64,000 nt of DNA, taken from Candidatus Cybelea palsarum. Lineage in GTDB: Bacteria > Vulcanimicrobiota > Vulcanimicrobiia > Vulcanimicrobiales > Vulcanimicrobiaceae. Shown piece by piece: positions 18,615-48,262 of the stretch; the stretch's first letter is position 1; each line of letters opens with the position of its first letter. The position numbers and the translations under genes are program-made. The notes below the pieces were generated by a model, which worked only from the letters and a program-made list of their open reading frames with translations, made no database searches and was not told the DNA's origin. The DNA is taken from positions 18,556 to 82,555 of the forward strand of contig PMUK01000204.1 in the NCBI GenBank assembly GCA_003166915.1, written 5' to 3'.

Positions 18615-21020
18615 TTACGGCCTAAACCTCACACCCATGTTTAGCTCGCGGCCGGCCCCGAAATGAGTACCCTGTGCGTTGAGGAGCGTGACGTAGTAGC
18701 GGTCGTTGAGCAGATTCTGGATATCCAACGTTAATGCGGTTTTCGGCGATAGCGCGATTCCGTCTTCCACGTTGAAAATCGTGTGCGGCGTTTCTTTGCA
18801 GTATCCCGGCGTGCCGAGTGGACAGAAAGCCGATGAAAGCCCGCTGCCGTAGTAGGCATCGGCTGAAAACCAGCCGCCGCGCCGGTCGTTGAGCAAGATG
18901 CCGCTAGTGATGGTGTAGCGCTGCTCGTGGTCTGCTGGCGTAAAGCCGGCGGGCTGCCCAAAACATGGCGCGAGGAGCTGCGTCTCACAGCCGAGATTGA
19001 GCGAAACTACGTGAGCAACCGTAAAGTAGGCGCGGCTGTTTTGCGATAGCGGTTGGACGTAGTTGAGCGCCTCCTGCGACAGCCGGCCCAGCACGTAGTT
19101 GATGTCCTGGTGGAGGAGCGTCACGCCGACCTGCGTGTCGTCGATGAGATCGTTGGCGTTTTTCTGCCAGACCCGAAAGCCGAGGTCTCCGGAGCCGACC
19201 GGGATATGCCCGCCGAGCTCGAGCTGCGTATCGCGCTCGGGTTTGAGGTCGAACTGGGCTTCAGTCCGCTGCAATGGCAGGTTGAGCACGTAGGCGGCTT
19301 CCGGGCTCACGTTTTCAAACGAAAACGGTTCGAAGAATCGGCCGACATATCCGTACACGCTCGCACGTTTTCCGAAGAGGCGTGTGATCTTTAGCCTGGG
19401 GCTGAACGCGCCGAAGCCCTGTCCGAAAGCGGTCGACTTGATGGTAAAGAAGTCGTAGCGGAGTCCGTAGTCGGCCTGCCATAGGCTGCTCATTCGCCAA
19501 CTGTCCTGAATGTACGATTGATACGTATTCCCGAGATTCGGCGAATCGTCGATTACGGTATAGGGAGCGTTGGGGGTGCTTGGAGTTTCGATCGGTGAGA
19601 GATAGTTATTCGGCTGCAGCGTGAACGAATAGGATTTCAGGACGCGACTCAGATCGTAGTTAACGCCGGCGCCAAGCGTATGGTTACCGAAACTCTGAGT
19701 GTAATCACCCTGCATGATGTAGTCGAGCTCGGTCCGCGCATCGGCGAGCGATAAGCCGCACATCGTCGGGAATCCCGTCGGGTTTGTTGGGGCGACGACG
19801 AAGGCATTGGCGCAGTCGGTCGACGTGCCGCCGTTGCCAAAGGGGGGCGGCGTCTGGTTGAGGGACTCGCCGTAGATCCAGTCGTTCGTGGGATCGCCGA
19901 AGTCCTGGACTCTCGATTCGTTATATGCCGGACCCCAGCTGATCGCGCCCGTATTGCCGATCGCATGGTGAAACTGGACCGACAGAAACGTAGCGGCTTG
20001 GGTTTCGTTGTCGTCGGTATTGCCGGGTTCGCCGGACGCGATGTCGTTGGGAATCTCAAACGTGTCGTGGCTATTGAAGAACGTAATATTCGTGAAGTTG
20101 TTGCCACCGGCGGGGAGCGTGAAGCGAGCGAACTGACCGACCGAGCTCGCATCGTTGTGAGGCGAGTTGAAGTCGGGCGGATCGAGGTCCCGCGTGGTCG
20201 TCAGCCCGCTGAGCGCGACGTCGTAACCCCCGCCACCTTCGAGGGGCGCGTGATACCCGATGGTCGACGCAGCGTCGGTGTACGAACCGTACGACGCATA
20301 TCCGTCGAAGCCGGGCGGACCCGTACCGGCTCGCGTCGACATATTGAAAACTGCACCAAATTTCAGGCCGTATTGCGCGGGATACGCGCCCTCGATGAGG
20401 TCCACGAAGGAGAGATCGTTGAGGTTGATCTCGCTGCCGATATCCCGATTCAGCTCCTGCGGCAACGGCACTCCGTCGAGCATATAGTTGATGACACCGT
20501 GGTCGCCATTGATGTGGACGACCCCGTCGGCGCCTTGAGCGGCGCCGGGCATCTGGGTCTCCATCTGAGTAAAGCTGTTATCGAACGGAAGCCGGGTCAG
20601 GGCCGTGCTGTTGAGGACCACGTCGCTTCCGCTGCCGTGAACGGTGAGCGATTGCGATTGACTGGCGACGGCGTGCGCGATCTCCGTAAGCCTCTCAAGG
20701 GCGATGGATAGGCTCGCACCGCCGCTTCCAAGATCGACGCGCACTAATCCCCGTAGGCCACCGTTTCGCGCCTCGACGTCATAGCTCCCCAACGCGAGCG
20801 GCGGGAACGAAAAATGTCCTCTTGCATCAGTCGTCGTTTTGACGGTCAGATTATTTCCTGACGCCGTTACCGCAACGTGCGCTGCCGGCACGCCGTTGTT
20901 CGTCACCGTTCCGGTAATAAAGGCACTCGCATTGACGGCATACGAAGGTGCTGCGCGCGCGAAGGCCAGCGCGACGGCGATCAATGCGGCGGCAGGCGCA
21001 CGCCACCAGGGCAAGTTCAT
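18615..21020 (-). CDS. TonB-dependent outer-membrane receptor with N-terminal regulatory-like domain
   Basis: This encodes 801 residues from the ATG at 21020 preceded by GGAGAGG; an in-frame GTG/ATG 24 bases earlier is less likely. A signal peptide is followed by a carboxypeptidase-regulatory-like Ig domain (ITGTVTNNGVPAAHVAVTA) at about 30-110. The plug (PFDNSFTQMETQMPGAAQG; INYMLDGVPLPQ) and a long barrel follow, ending in an aromatic-type terminus (GVRFRP). It should import a metal chelate or other large ligand using TonB energy. A Fur-like box and a Fur-family gene lie directly upstream in divergent orientation, so metal control is likely. Confidence 0.9.
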   Translation of the reverse strand: MNLPWWRAPAAALIAVALAFARAAPSYAVNASAFITGTVTNNGVPAAHVAVTASGNNLTVKTTTDARGHFSFPPLALGSYDVEARNGGLRGLVRVDLGSGGASLSIALERLTEIAHAVASQSQSLTVHGSGSDVVLNSTALTRLPFDNSFTQMETQMPGAAQGADGVVHINGDHGVINYMLDGVPLPQELNRDIGSEINLNDLSFVDLIEGAYPAQYGLKFGAVFNMSTRAGTGPPGFDGYASYGSYTDAASTIGYHAPLEGGGGYDVALSGLTTTRDLDPPDFNSPHNDASSVGQFARFTLPAGGNNFTNITFFNSHDTFEIPNDIASGEPGNTDDNETQAATFLSVQFHHAIGNTGAISWGPAYNESRVQDFGDPTNDWIYGESLNQTPPPFGNGGTSTDCANAFVVAPTNPTGFPTMCGLSLADARTELDYIMQGDYTQSFGNHTLGAGVNYDLSRVLKSYSFTLQPNNYLSPIETPSTPNAPYTVIDDSPNLGNTYQSYIQDSWRMSSLWQADYGLRYDFFTIKSTAFGQGFGAFSPRLKITRLFGKRASVYGYVGRFFEPFSFENVSPEAAYVLNLPLQRTEAQFDLKPERDTQLELGGHIPVGSGDLGFRVWQKNANDLIDDTQVGVTLLHQDINYVLGRLSQEALNYVQPLSQNSRAYFTVAHVVSLNLGCETQLLAPCFGQPAGFTPADHEQRYTITSGILLNDRRGGWFSADAYYGSGLSSAFCPLGTPGYCKETPHTIFNVEDGIALSPKTALTLDIQNLLNDRYYVTLLNAQGTHFGAGRELNMGVRFRP

Positions 21021-21071: not shown

Positions 21072-21093
21072 TGAGATTAGCGTATCATTATCA
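21072..21093. promoter_or_regulatory. Fur-like operator between TonB receptor and Fur-family gene
   Basis: TGAGATTAGCGTATCATTATCA resembles the 21-bp Fur consensus. The right half ATCATTATCA is perfect and the left half is weaker. It sits in the 159-base divergent gap, about 50 bases before the receptor start and 90 before the regulator start. It is AT-rich against a GC-rich background and could control both genes. Confidence 0.5.
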
Positions 21094-21179: not shown

Positions 21180-21560
21180 GTGGTGATTCGCGCTAGGAAG
21201 ACAAAGCAGCGGGACGCCGTGCGCGCCGTATTGGAAGGCGCGCAACGTCCCCTCAGCGTGGATGAGTTGCTCAAAGCGGCGTCGAGGCGAGTCAAGGGCC
21301 TCGGCGTTGCGACCGTCTACCGCGCGGTTGGGGCGTTGGTGGCGGAGGGTTGGATCGAAACCGTCGAAATACCGGGAGAACCGGCTCGATACGAGCGCGC
21401 GGACAAAGGACATCACCATCATTTTCAGTGCGAGAAGTGCGATCGCGCTTTCGACGTTGCCGGATGCCTGGATAATCTTCGCAAGCTAGCGCCGCCGAGG
21501 TTTCGAGTTAAGCAACACTCCGTGACCCTGTATGGGCTATGCGCCGCGTGCGCGCCTTAG
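21180..21560 (+). CDS. Fur-family metal-responsive repressor
   Basis: This encodes 126 residues. The N-terminal winged helix (KQRDAVRAVLEGAQRPLSVD; GVATVYRAVGALVAEGWIE) is followed by the metal-binding dimerisation domain with HHHHFQCEKCDRAFDV and a second C-x2-C near the end (GLCAACAP). These give the structural zinc site and the regulatory His cluster. The metal cannot be decided (Fe, Zn or Mn). It is divergent from a TonB receptor with a Fur-like box between. Start is GTG after GGGGAGG. Confidence 0.88.
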   Translation: MVIRARKTKQRDAVRAVLEGAQRPLSVDELLKAASRRVKGLGVATVYRAVGALVAEGWIETVEIPGEPARYERADKGHHHHFQCEKCDRAFDVAGCLDNLRKLAPPRFRVKQHSVTLYGLCAACAP

Positions 21561-33612: not shown

Positions 33613-34260
33613 ATGAGGAAACGCTCGCGTATTTCCGGCGCTGCGCTGCTTGTGTGTGTGGCGCTCGTCGGCGCGGCCGCACCGCTTCGAGCCGCGACTC
33701 CCGTACAGGTAGCGGTGAACCGCTGCAACAGCCAGACCGTCGACGACGCGTACGCACGCGTTCGCGATTTCGACCGGCATGCACCCAGCGGCAACTCCGG
33801 TGATCTGCTGCAGCGGATCGGTGCCATTACCGGCCTGCTCGGGACGCTGCGGGAGGAGCGGGAAATACTCGACAGCATGTGCGCCAGCGACGCGGCGCGA
33901 GCACCGCTTTTCGCGCAAATTGCGGCGACAACTGCGTGGGCCCTCACGCTCGAATCCGATGTCGCCGCCCGCTTGAACGCGTCGTGCCCGGCCGCCGCCC
34001 AGGCGTTCCCGAAGATGATGCTCTCCGATGCCTGGCTCGCGATGGCCAACGTCGTCAACGATTCGGGCGGTCCCGTGCCGGCGATCTTTACCGACGTGAT
34101 CGCGAAGGTGCAAAGCCGCGCGCAGGCGGTCGGCCTGACGCTGCCGCCCTGGGCAGATACGTCCGCGTACTGGCGCGACCGAGTCCACGATCGGGCAAAG
34201 GCCGACGTGGCGACCTGTCCCTCGCCCAGCCCCGCACCCCCTTCGACAAGCTCAGGGTGA
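33613..34260 (+). CDS. Secreted hypothetical protein ending in a repeat-derived tail
   Basis: This encodes 215 residues. A signal peptide (SGAALLVCVALVGAAAPLRA) precedes a helical mature domain with four or more cysteines (VNRCNSQTVDD; LDSMCASDAA; LNASCPAAAQAFP). The last residues (PAPPSTSSG) and the stop codon come from a copy of the dispersed CCTTCGACAAGCTCAGG repeat. The original C terminus may have been replaced. Family and function are not recognised. Confidence 0.65.
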   Translation: MRKRSRISGAALLVCVALVGAAAPLRAATPVQVAVNRCNSQTVDDAYARVRDFDRHAPSGNSGDLLQRIGAITGLLGTLREEREILDSMCASDAARAPLFAQIAATTAWALTLESDVAARLNASCPAAAQAFPKMMLSDAWLAMANVVNDSGGPVPAIFTDVIAKVQSRAQAVGLTLPPWADTSAYWRDRVHDRAKADVATCPSPSPAPPSTSSG

Positions 34261-34300: not shown

Positions 34301-34310
34301 AATGCGGGAT

Positions 34311-34329
34311 TTTGCGAATAGTTCGCAAA
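34311..34329. promoter_or_regulatory. Perfect 19-bp palindrome, candidate Zur operator
   Basis: TTTGCGAATAGTTCGCAAA is an exact 8-3-8 inverted repeat. It ends 12 bases before the first ATG of the zinc-uptake operon and just before the GAGG ribosome binding site. The regulator is the first gene behind it. Position and symmetry fit autoregulation by a dimeric Fur-family repressor. The motif itself is not one of the Zur boxes I know. Confidence 0.65.
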
Positions 34330-34341
34330 TGAGGTAGCCCC

Positions 34342-34734
34342 ATGGGACTCCGTGCCGATTATGTGACGCGGCCGCGAGAGTGGATCGCATCGATCCTCGC
34401 GCGCGAGCCCCGCTTTCTTTCGGCCGCACAAATCCATCAGGGGCTCGAGCGTGACGGCGCACGCGTCTCGCTTTCGACCGTCTATCGCACGCTCGATCAT
34501 TTGCAGGGAAAGGGCGACATCACGGCGCGCCCCGACGCCGACGGCGAGGTGACGTACATGCTCTGCGAACCGAGCCGTCATCATCATCACGCGATCTGCC
34601 GCACGTGCGGACGCGTCGAAGACGTCGATTGTGCTGCAATGGAGCAGTTCGCGGAGTCGCTCCGCGCGCGCAACGGATTTGAGCTCGATGGACACGCGAT
34701 CGAGTTTTTCGGAAAATGCGGCGCCTGCCGGTAG
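34342..34734 (+). CDS. zur: Fur-family regulator, probable Zur
   Basis: This encodes 130 residues. The winged helix (ILAREPRFLSAAQIHQGLER; VSLSTVYRTLDHLQGKGDIT) is followed by the metal domain with SRHHHHAICRTCGRVEDVDC and a terminal C-x2-C (FGKCGACR), the structural zinc site. It is the first gene of an operon with a zinc-type ABC importer and overlaps the binding-protein gene by 19 bases. Zinc is therefore the probable corepressor. A 19-bp palindrome lies immediately upstream. Confidence 0.88.
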   Translation: MGLRADYVTRPREWIASILAREPRFLSAAQIHQGLERDGARVSLSTVYRTLDHLQGKGDITARPDADGEVTYMLCEPSRHHHHAICRTCGRVEDVDCAAMEQFAESLRARNGFELDGHAIEFFGKCGACR

Positions 34735-35588
34735 TCGCGGGTGCGCTTGCGCTCCTCTTGTCGGCGTGCGCGCACAAGGCAGACGTAAACACGGGAGGCA
34801 AGGTTCGCGTAGCGACCACGATTTCGACGCTCAACTCGTTCGTGCAGGGCGTCGGCGGCGAGTACGTGAGCGTGAAGAACATCGTACCGATCGGCGCGTC
34901 GCCGGAAACCTTCGCGCCCGCGCCGCAGGACGTCGCGACCGTCGCCGATGCCGACGTATTGGTCGAAAACGGAGCCGGCCTCGAAACGTGGCTCGATAAT
35001 CTTCTCCGTGACTCCGGCAAGCGCACTTTACACGTCGTCGTCTGCGCGCAAGGCTTGCCGGTCAAGAATCTCAACCCGCATCTGTGGATGGACCCGGTAT
35101 TCGCCAAACACTACGTTGCGAAGATCCGCGATGCACTTATTGCCGCCGATCCGGCACATAGCGTCGCCTATCGCCGCAACGCGGCCAGCTACGACCGGCG
35201 GCTCGACCATCTGATCGGCCAGATCCGACAGCAGATCGCCACCGTCCCGCCGTCGCATCGCTACATGATCGTCTTCCATAATGCTTGGCAGTACTATAAC
35301 GACCGTTTTGGAATCACGACGCTGGGTTTCGTCGAGCGAAATCCGGGCCAGGAGCCCAATCCGCAGCAGGTCGCGCAGTTAATCGATCTGGCCAAGCAGC
35401 ATCACGTTCACGGCGTCTTTAGCGAACCCGAGTATAGCCCCAAGATTTTGTACGCCATCGCACAAGGCGCCGGGATTACGGTCGTCGAGGACCTCTACGA
35501 CGATTCCGTCGGCACCGATCCGCGCGTCGCAAACTATATTGCGATGTTGACCTACGACACAAACGTCATCGTGCATGCGCTAAAGTGA
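34716..35588 (+). CDS. znuA: Zinc/manganese ABC transporter substrate-binding lipoprotein
   Basis: This encodes 290 residues with signal and lipobox (VAGALALLLSAC). It has the cluster-A-I metal-binding fold. The first His is probably in LNPHLWMDP, a second in IVFHNAWQYYNDRFGI, an acidic residue in GVFSEPEYSPK and Asp in EDLYDDSVGTD. The His-rich loop of classical ZnuA is absent. It delivers metal to the permease encoded two genes downstream. Zinc is inferred from the regulator. Confidence 0.88.
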   Translation: MRRLPVVAGALALLLSACAHKADVNTGGKVRVATTISTLNSFVQGVGGEYVSVKNIVPIGASPETFAPAPQDVATVADADVLVENGAGLETWLDNLLRDSGKRTLHVVVCAQGLPVKNLNPHLWMDPVFAKHYVAKIRDALIAADPAHSVAYRRNAASYDRRLDHLIGQIRQQIATVPPSHRYMIVFHNAWQYYNDRFGITTLGFVERNPGQEPNPQQVAQLIDLAKQHHVHGVFSEPEYSPKILYAIAQGAGITVVEDLYDDSVGTDPRVANYIAMLTYDTNVIVHALK

Positions 35589-36388
35589 CCCTTCGACAGG
35601 CTCAGGGTGAAGCCGTCGTGGCGCGCGACCTGGTCGTGCGTTACGAGGACTTCACGGCACTGGTCGGCGCGACGCTCGCAGTGCATTACGGAGAAGCGCT
35701 GGGCATCGTCGGCCCCAACGGCTCGGGAAAATCGACGCTGCTCAAGACGATCGCGGGCCTTTTACTGCCGTCGAGCGGCGAGTTACGCGTTCTCGGGCAG
35801 CAGCCGCGCAAGCTTTCTCCCGGAACGATCGCCTACGTGCCCCAGGTCGAGGCTGTCGACTGGTCCTTTCCCGCCACCGTGTGGGACGTCGTCGCAATGG
35901 GTCGCTTCGCCCGGCTGCACTTCTGGCAACATTTTGGTCCCAACGATCGCGAGGTCGTTCATCATGCGCTTGATGTTGTGAGTATGGCCGATCTTGCCGG
36001 ACGGCGGATCTCGAATCTCTCCGGCGGTCAACAGCAACGCGCTTTCGTCGCGCGCGCGCTAGCCCAAGAACCCAAGCTGCTGCTGCTCGACGAGCCGACG
36101 ACCGGCGTCGATGCGGCGACGGAAGAAGCGCTGCGCGAAATCGTTCGCAAGCTCGTCGCCGATGGGCTTCCGGTGCTCATGGCGACGCACGATCTCGACC
36201 GGGTCGACGATTGGTTCGATCGTTTGCTCGTAATCGATCGTCGCGTCCTTGCTCTTGGAACGCCGCGCGAGGTCGTCGAGTCCGGCGCCTATAGCGCCAT
36301 TCGCGAGCATACCCACACGCACGGGCACTTGCGCCACGATCACGAGCCGCACGCCGCCCACGCCGCCCACCCCGAAATACGAGCCTGA
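35585..36388 (+). CDS. znuC: Zinc/manganese ABC transporter ATP-binding protein
   Basis: This encodes 267 residues. Walker A is GPNGSGKST, the Q loop is in YVPQVEAVDW, the signature is LSGGQQQRAF, Walker B is LLLLDEPTTG and the switch is ATHD. The C-terminal tail is His-rich (HTHTHGHLRHDHEPHAAHAA), often seen in zinc-handling proteins. The first residues after the GTG (TLRQAQGEA) are encoded by a dispersed repeat. The start overlaps the znuA stop by 4 bases. Confidence 0.92.
   Translation: MTLRQAQGEAVVARDLVVRYEDFTALVGATLAVHYGEALGIVGPNGSGKSTLLKTIAGLLLPSSGELRVLGQQPRKLSPGTIAYVPQVEAVDWSFPATVWDVVAMGRFARLHFWQHFGPNDREVVHHALDVVSMADLAGRRISNLSGGQQQRAFVARALAQEPKLLLLDEPTTGVDAATEEALREIVRKLVADGLPVLMATHDLDRVDDWFDRLLVIDRRVLALGTPREVVESGAYSAIREHTHTHGHLRHDHEPHAAHAAHPEIRA
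35588..35612. repeat. Dispersed repeat at the znuA/znuC junction
   Basis: CCCTTCGACAGGCTCAGGGTG follows the znuC GTG directly. It is in frame and encodes the first residues of the ATPase, ahead of its conserved domain. Confidence 0.75.
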
Positions 36389-36389
36389 G

Positions 36390-37205
36390 TTGGAGCTTCT
36401 AACCGAGCCCTTTCATTATGCGTTTATGCAGCGAGCCTTCGTTGCGGCGCTGGCGGTTGGCCTGATCTGCTCGACGATGGGCACGTACGTTATTTTGCGT
36501 AAGCTATCGTTCATCGGTGACGGCATCGCGCACGCGTCGTTCGCGGGAATCGTCATCGCGTATCTACGCGGCGCGAACTTCTACCTCGGTGCGGGCATCG
36601 TTGCCGTGCTAACCGCCGTTGGGATCGGATTCGTCCATCGCCGCGGCCGCATATCGCTCGATACGACGATCGGCGTGCTCTTTACCGGCATGTTTGCCTT
36701 GGGCGTTTTTTTGATGAGCCAGCAGCGCAGCTATGCCGTCGATCTCCAGAGTTTTCTCTTCGGCGACATCCTGGCCGTACAGCCGCAGGATTTGTGGTTG
36801 ATTCTCGGTTTGAGCGTCGTGGTCGGCGTTACCGTTGCCGTGCTTTTCCGGGGCCTACTCTACACGACGTTCGATCCGGTCGTCGCACAGGCCAGCGGCA
36901 TCAATTCGCCGGCCTACGAATATGCGCTGCTCGTGATGCTGGCGCTGACAATCGTCGTCGCTCTGCAGGCGGTTGGCATCGTACTAGTCGCGGCGCTGCT
37001 GGTCACTCCGGCGGCCGCCGCCTACCAACTGACGTCGCGGTTTTCGCCGATGATGGTCCTGGCTGCGCTCTTCGGCGCGGCGAGTACCGAGGGCGGACTC
37101 TATCTCTCCTATTACGTTCGCGCTTCGAGTGGCGCGACGATCGTATTGCTCGCGACGCTGCTGTTTTTCTCGGCGGTCGGGCTCAAGTATCTGCGCCGCG
37201 CGTAA
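36390..37205 (+). CDS. znuB: Zinc/manganese ABC transporter permease
   Basis: This encodes about 271 residues from a TTG at 36390, one base past the znuC stop. Starting at the ATG at 36426 would lose the conserved LLTEPFHYAFMQRAF. It has seven to nine membrane helices with the ABC-3 family signatures (GTYVILRKLSFIGDGIAHAS; FAGIVIAYL; ALLVTPAAAAYQL). It forms the membrane channel with the ATPase and binding protein encoded upstream. Its end overlaps the convergent SDR gene by 23 bases. Confidence 0.9.
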   Translation: MELLTEPFHYAFMQRAFVAALAVGLICSTMGTYVILRKLSFIGDGIAHASFAGIVIAYLRGANFYLGAGIVAVLTAVGIGFVHRRGRISLDTTIGVLFTGMFALGVFLMSQQRSYAVDLQSFLFGDILAVQPQDLWLILGLSVVVGVTVAVLFRGLLYTTFDPVVAQASGINSPAYEYALLVMLALTIVVALQAVGIVLVAALLVTPAAAAYQLTSRFSPMMVLAALFGAASTEGGLYLSYYVRASSGATIVLLATLLFFSAVGLKYLRRA

Positions 37206-38280
37206 CTTTCCAGGTCTCGTCCGCTAACGGTTCCAAATAACCGCCGGCCGTAAGCGCGTCGAGCGCCCCTCGCAGCGCCCCACGCTCATTTTTATTCGGC
37301 ATTCCCGCCCATTGCATCGCCAGCGCGTTAAGCTCGATCGTCGCGCCGGGCACGAGCGCGTCGCGCAAGAACTGCGCCGGCAGTTTGACGCGCTCCATTC
37401 GCCGCGCCACCGGCTCGAGCACCTCATCGAAGGATCCAGCCGTAGCCTTGTCATCCAGACCCTTCGACTCCCCTTCGACAAGCTCAGCGTCGCTCAGGAC
37501 TGCGCTTCGCGCTTGTGGGGAGAGTCGCGAAATGACGAATGCATCGGCGAGCGTTCCGAACCATTCGCCGAGTAGGGCCCCGGCGGTCTGCCACGGCACG
37601 GCGTTGACCACCGCGGAGCGGCGTGCGATGCCGCGCAAGATCGCGCGCGCGATGCGCTCGGGCGAAGCGGCGGAAACTTGGCCCCCGCGTTCGATTCCCG
37701 CAGCTTCGTGAAACTCGGTGGCGACGAGTCCGGGATCGACGTAGGTGACGGCAACTCCGCGGTCGCGCAGCTCACGCCGCAACTGGGTCGCCGCGGCTCG
37801 AACGGCAGCCTTGGCGAGGGCGTAGGCGCCGTAGTTAGGGAGCGGAACGCGGGCGATTCCCGAGCCGAGAAAGACGAGTTGTCCGCAAGCGGCCTCGAGA
37901 TGCGGCAATGCAGCGCGAGAGAGTTTCAGCGGAGCGATGACATGAAGCCGCCACTGCGCCTCGATAGCGGCGTCGGTTTGCTCGAGCAGTGCGCCGAAAG
38001 CACCGCGGCCCGCGTTGTTGACGACGGCGTCAATTCGCCCGAACGAACTCAGCGCCGTCGTGACGATTCGCCCCGGCATATCGCTGGCGGTAACGTCGCC
38101 GGCGACGGAAACGACCGTACCGCCGGCGTCGCGAATCGCACGCGCTACCTCCTCGAGCCGTTCGGCGCGGCGCGCGACGATCGCGACGCGATAACCGGCG
38201 TCCGCGGCGGTGCGTGCGAGCGCGGCGCCGATGCCGGAGCTGGCGCCGGTAACGATGAGAACGCGCTCGTTGTCAGGCAT
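37183..38280 (-). CDS. Short-chain dehydrogenase with extended C terminus carrying a repeat-derived insert
   Basis: This encodes 365 residues, about 110 longer than a classical SDR. TGASSGIG near the start, NNAG, Ser in VFLGSGIARV and Tyr-x3-Lys in YALAK are intact. After the core (about residue 255) comes a segment ending VLSDAELVEGESKGLDD, whose DNA is a copy of the dispersed repeat. A final domain follows (FLRDALVPGATIELNALAMQ; LTAGGYLEPLADETWKVT), which looks like a winged-helix or PqqD-like piece. The substrate is unknown. It overlaps the glycosidase stop by 8 bases. Confidence 0.82.
   Translation of the reverse strand: MPDNERVLIVTGASSGIGAALARTAADAGYRVAIVARRAERLEEVARAIRDAGGTVVSVAGDVTASDMPGRIVTTALSSFGRIDAVVNNAGRGAFGALLEQTDAAIEAQWRLHVIAPLKLSRAALPHLEAACGQLVFLGSGIARVPLPNYGAYALAKAAVRAAATQLRRELRDRGVAVTYVDPGLVATEFHEAAGIERGGQVSAASPERIARAILRGIARRSAVVNAVPWQTAGALLGEWFGTLADAFVISRLSPQARSAVLSDAELVEGESKGLDDKATAGSFDEVLEPVARRMERVKLPAQFLRDALVPGATIELNALAMQWAGMPNKNERGALRGALDALTAGGYLEPLADETWKVTRGADT
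37459..37498. repeat. Dispersed repeat inserted in frame inside the SDR gene
   Basis: Two CCTTCGAC starts (37461 and 37472) and CGACAAGCTCAGCGTCGCTC mark the element. The frame stays open through it and adds about 14 residues to the protein. Confidence 0.7.
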
Positions 38281-39448: not shown

Positions 39449-39507
39449 TCATCCTTCGACAAGCTCAGGATGACAACCCGGAGCCTGCCATGAGCTTGTC
39501 GAAGGGC
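39449..39507. repeat. Inverted pair of dispersed repeats forming a hairpin before purE
   Basis: CCTTCGACAAGCTCA (39453-39467) and TGAGCTTGTCGAAGG (39491-39505) are exact inverted copies, giving a 15-bp stem with a 23-base loop. The purE Shine-Dalgarno AAGGG (39502-39506) lies in and just past the right arm. Confidence 0.85.
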
Positions 39508-48191: not shown

Positions 48192-48262
48192 GTCATCCTT
48201 CGACAAGCTCAGGATGACACCGAGAGCGTCGTCCTTCGATCCTTCAGGCTCAGGATGACAAG
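48192..48262. repeat. Two copies of the dispersed repeat between leucine-catabolic genes
   Basis: GTCATCCTTCGACAAGCTCA plus GGATGAC (48192-48218) is internally palindromic (GTCATCCT/AGGATGAC). A second, slightly diverged copy (GTCCTTCGATCCTTCAGGCT plus CAGGATGAC) follows at 48230-48258. They fill the gap between the carboxylase alpha stop and the lyase start. Confidence 0.85.

Follow-up and report, generated by a model that had tools for sequence, protein, structure and literature searches.

A predicted Zur operator before zur-znuACB in Eremiobacterota and its relation to a receptor gene under two types of box

In the 64-kb window (the whole stretch of DNA analysed here, 64,000 nucleotides), a perfect 19-bp palindrome stands immediately before a cluster that encodes a Fur-family regulator and a metal importer, zur-znuA-znuC-znuB (Table 1). 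The question raised by this locus is whether the palindrome is the site at which the regulator controls its own cluster, and if so, which metal is sensed and whether the site belongs to a known kind. From the comparison of sequences, we consider it very probable that the Zur encoded 12 bases downstream has its operator in this palindrome, and that the site would serve to repress zur-znuACB under zinc. Among the literature searched there was none on how Eremiobacterota take up zinc, and the box offers a usable motif for the annotation of zinc-responsive genes in this phylum.

Table 1. Features of the window at and around the two Fur-family genes
Feature	Position	Strand	Remarks
TonB-dependent receptor	18615..21020	-	orthologues elsewhere carry a Zur box
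Operator of the other type (predicted), TGATAATGATACGCTAATCTCA	21072..21093		letters as read on the - strand; the AT-rich box of the first-pass annotation
fur2, second Fur-family gene	21183..21560	+	Pfam FUR 4.2e-18
CTTCGACAAGCTCAGGGTGA repeat	34241-34260, 35591-35610, 39454-39473, 48198-48217		degenerate copy at 37473-37492
Zur operator (predicted)	34310..34330		19-bp palindrome 34311-34329 and one conserved A/T on either side
zur, Fur-family zinc-type repressor	34342..34734	+	130 aa; Pfam FUR 8.7e-25
znuA-type substrate-binding lipoprotein	34716..35588	+	start overlaps the end of zur; Pfam ZnuA 7.3e-70
znuC-type ATPase	35585..36388	+	His-rich C-terminal tail
znuB-type permease	36390..37205	+	Pfam ABC-3 4.9e-79; AztB 5.3e-70, below cut-off

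The palindrome before zur and its conservation

The palindrome, TTTGCGAATAGTTCGCAAA, is an exact 8-3-8 inverted repeat (TTTGCGAA-TAG-TTCGCAAA) with the 7-1-7 core TGCGAAT-A-GTTCGCA at 34313-34327, and it ends 12 bases upstream of the zur ATG at 34342, as the first-pass annotation had described. A bare palindrome of this form is unremarkable, occurring as often as chance predicts: 2 perfect 8-3-8 repeats are present in the window, and 2.35 per 64 kb are expected when the window is modelled as a first-order Markov chain. The significance of this one thus lies in its position and conservation rather than in palindromy per se. Genome-wide scans used patterns and a sequence-only covariance model; within the 3.36 Mb genome, the palindrome at 34311-34329 alone has 0-2 mismatches in its arms, and no second box within 3 mismatches was found elsewhere in the window. 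At 3 mismatches in the arms there were 25 further sites, compared with 15 for a reversed-pattern control. No further target of the Zur box was found in the window's own genome; the sole other near match (C122:13438, 1 mismatch in 17) stood at the same level as the reversed control and was rejected. Matches had been anticipated before ribosomal-protein paralogues and other zinc genes, and the search of this genome yielded none there.

Zur homologues at E <= 1e-20 were found in 48 genomes including the window's own; those related genomes that have named records were assembled from metagenomes (Candidatus Eremiobacterota MAGs). Gene order defined 26 homologous zur-znuA loci and 17 znuB-zur loci. 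In all 24 zur orthologues with at least 55% identity (55-98%, or the window's own), which come from the window's own genus and family, the box stands 22-32 bases upstream of the start. Same-family genomes with zur directly before znuA number 26, and include, besides these 24, one (G041) with a symmetrically altered perfect palindrome, TTTTGAGAC-TCT-GTCTCAAAA, at the same position and one (L047 in G043) that has no such box although znuA comes after zur. Information content is high only within a 21-bp island, with the columns of the flanks nearly unconserved. The consensus of the family box is TTTGCGAAYNRTTCGCAAA, with the 7-1-7 consensus TGCGAAYNRTTCGCA, in which the two innermost positions, Y and R, frequently deviate from exact complementarity, as in the T-A-G of the window. 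The exact string TTGCGAANNNTTCGCAA occurred 16 times in 78 genomes: 13 times before zur, once before a receptor gene and twice within coding sequence. The box is neither absent before zur in related genomes nor scattered at random along the chromosome, the two outcomes that had been named as grounds for giving up the idea, and its conservation in relatives and near-uniqueness in the chromosome support the proposal of a candidate Zur operator for zur-znuACB.

The first-pass annotation had also called the operator a new type, resembling none of the known Zur boxes, and this part does not hold. The Zur consensus of S. coelicolor is TGAAAATGATTTTCA, and the Zur boxes of Corynebacterium and Mycobacterium are described as 10-1-10 (PMC2823685). 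The box here shares with actinobacterial Zur boxes a 7-1-7 core within about 21 bp, the outer TG..CA, the inner AAT-N-ATT and a place before zur/znu genes; it differs from that of S. coelicolor at two positions per half-site, positions 3-4 being CG here and AA there. Unlike the actinobacterial regulons, the window's own genome showed no sites before ribosomal-protein paralogues. A literature search for the half-site returned one relevant match, the footprinted feoAB1 operator of Magnetospirillum gryphiswaldense Fur (TTAATCGCAACTCATTCGCAATTGC, crystallised as TTGCAAATCATTTGCAA in 25 bp; PMC4506495), which has the half-site ATTCGCAA and the same single-dimer layout. The crystallised form is close to variants of the box in relatives such as TTGCAAACCATTCGCAA. 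The Magnetospirillum protein, in contrast, is an iron regulator of an iron importer, and the operator as found in nature has less symmetry. Variation of Zur boxes between phyla has been described (PMC6103462). Judged by its layout and letters, the box is a family-specific spelling of the known Fur-family 7-1-7 kind.

The dispersed repeat CTTCGACAAGCTCAGGGTGA has 34 copies in the genome within 2 mismatches, and none for the reversed control. One of them stands in the gap between the Zur box and the preceding gene, and another at the znuC start. The box was considered as a part of this repeat and rejected as such, the repeat match ending at 34260.

The regulator, its metal and its mode of action

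The solved structures closest to the regulator are the Zur proteins of S. coelicolor (1.1e-25) and M. tuberculosis (4e-21). By alignment, it retains nearly all zinc ligands of actinobacterial Zur: the structural Cys4 site is kept (Cys86, 89, 126 and 129), as are Cys75, His81 and His83 of site 2, in Zur a sulfur-containing N2OS sensory site, and the His/Glu ligands of site 3, while the equivalent of the fourth site-2 ligand, Asp62 of M. tuberculosis, aligns to Thr, with no acid. Cys75 is kept in 48 of the 48 aligned homologues, and the site-3 ligands too in the close ones. In S. coelicolor Zur the equivalent of this site-2 Cys is C79, and its mutation left almost no DNA binding (PMC6103462).

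The importer itself says less about the metal. Since ZnuA and ZnuC score about equally well with manganese-transporter and zinc models, HMM matches do not settle zinc versus manganese; against NCBIfam, the znuA product matched both AztC and MntC below cut-off. A regulator that senses manganese or iron, that is, a Mur- or Fur-like repressor of a manganese or iron importer with the box as its operator, would account for this, and it would also agree with the closest footprinted half-site being that of Magnetospirillum Fur. We regard this as improbable, as Zur proteins are the closest solved relatives by a wide margin, the Cys needed in S. coelicolor Zur is kept throughout the homologues, and the ATPase bears a His-rich tail.

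For this locus we infer that Zur binds the box, that zinc is its effector and that the outcome is repression. With enough zinc, a Zn-loaded Zur dimer would occupy TTTGCGAAY-N-RTTCGCAAA with one helix-turn-helix per half-site and block initiation at zur-znuACB, whereas zinc starvation would release Zur and allow the importer to be made. As Zur would block initiation of the operon that encodes it, we propose that repressor and importer are negatively autoregulated.

Box spelling in families with flipped gene order

In two other families (f2 and f3), zur is the last gene, behind znuACB, and the palindrome stands before znuA. In f3, a sister family of the same class, it reads TTATCGAGAATNATTCTCGATAA and is present within 3 mismatches in 12 of the 14 genomes, with the variant CAAGTGAGAATGATTCTCGGTAA in one of the family (G060); in f2 it reads AATTTGACGANGAATCGCAAATT and is less symmetric. 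The types of box follow the topology of the Zur protein tree, on which all 13 f3 rows were given their box label by family. A TTGACA-N18-TANNNT promoter ends at the operator, with the -10 directly abutting it, in four of the seven f3 loci read directly, an arrangement that would fit repression through covering of the start. As to the first-pass idea that the palindrome overlaps the start region, the operator abuts the -10 in these f3 loci, and near the box in the window there was no sigma-70 promoter match.

The f3 promoters also bear on whether the palindrome could act as RNA, forming a hairpin in the zur leader for translation control or attenuation. Folded as a single strand, the region can form the eight pairs immediately ahead of the start codon. 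The folding energy of the region is, however, no better than that of shuffles (z 0.21), there is no terminator match, and relatives have the box before other genes, as tandem pairs and, in one case, about 230 bases before a receptor start. In f3 the box follows right after the -10, and the transcript would therefore be without much of one arm. Together these points leave such a hairpin very little credence. Equally little is left for the operator of another regulator or for a chance palindrome or repeat element, for which the chance-level frequency of perfect 8-3-8 palindromes in the window and the dispersed repeat a short way upstream would speak, but the box is near-unique in the genome and strictly zur-linked across many genera, and a palindrome is found at znuA instead once the gene order flips.

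A TonB-dependent receptor as a predicted second target

The position, dyad symmetry and conservation of the predicted Zur operator go together with a linkage to zur, to znu genes and, in relatives, to a TonB-dependent receptor. A sequence-only model of the box, run through 40 genomes, identified receptor genes (by Pfam) with a Zur box in G009, G011, G020, G026 and G028, where the box is repeated in tandem in several cases. Further matches within secF-like, sucD-like and GntR-like genes (L116, L117 and L095) were treated as chance. In f3 a membrane protein of some 200 aa is encoded ahead of the receptor, and in eight genomes the pair has f3-type boxes upstream, whether exact or degenerate; the GAGAATNATTCTC core at >=11/12 was present in five f3 upstream regions of the pair versus 1 of 840 shuffled regions. 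In both families, the same two targets (znu/zur and, in some species, the TonB-dependent receptor) bear the family's own box. TonB-dependent outer-membrane receptors are likewise under Zur in Caulobacter, by experiment there and by prediction here, although the Caulobacter Zur box, GTTA-N5-TAAC, is unrelated (PMC4176598).

The receptor gene in the window is not under a Zur box. It is divergent from fur2, and the box between them, TGATAATGATACGCTAATCTCA, overlaps the receptor promoter TTGACT-N17-TAATCT. The fur2 product is without the site-2 Cys of Zur in the alignment, and its best NCBIfam match, below cut-off, is PerR-type. A box of the TGATAATGATACGCTAATCTCA kind was found in 11 of 11 receptor loci that have a close fur2 neighbour, and in two genomes of the window's genus (G009 and G011), where the receptor has no fur2 neighbour, the Zur box stands at this gene. 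On the receptor tree the Zur-box label requires three changes, so an exchange of regulator at this gene between Zur and fur2 is likely from these sequences. The distinctness of the palindrome from the AT-rich box, pointed out in the first-pass annotation, stands; its corollary that the two regulators would not cross-talk is plausible within the window's genome; across the relatives, however, this receptor gene is seen with either box.

We think it rather likely, with less assurance than for the operator itself, that in this Eremiobacterota class the operators of the whole small Zur regulon (the znu operon and the TonB-dependent receptor) went from the TTTGCGAA type of spelling to the TATCGAGAA type, or the reverse, as Zur itself changed, and that within one genus the receptor stands under Zur or fur2, each with its own box, the regulator having been exchanged while the transport gene stayed almost the same. 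These relatives make a clean case for comparison, in which a repressor changes along with its sites and a single receptor gene stands under one or the other of two metalloregulators in species that are closely related.

Several smaller observations concern the receptor and its neighbours. The f3 membrane protein ends in ..NRPPP.. (L166, L168, L162 and L144), is apparently co-transcribed with the Zur-linked receptor and had no Pfam match. In one genome (L129 in G022), distant znuA- and znuC-like genes come after the receptor on its strand, and a Zur-like gene (44% identity) is divergent from it, an arrangement in keeping with a role of the receptor in metal uptake. In another (L154 in G038), a palindrome that comes close to the Zur box of Streptomyces, TTGAAAATGCATTTTCAA, lies about 30 bases before a receptor match and adjoins a fur2-like gene (42% identity). 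Finally, a box-like TTTGCGAAACGGTCGCAAA (L105, ~1517, in G044) lies some 33 bases upstream of a gene whose product, a membrane protein, matches DsbD_2 weakly; this gene is possibly a further Zur target.
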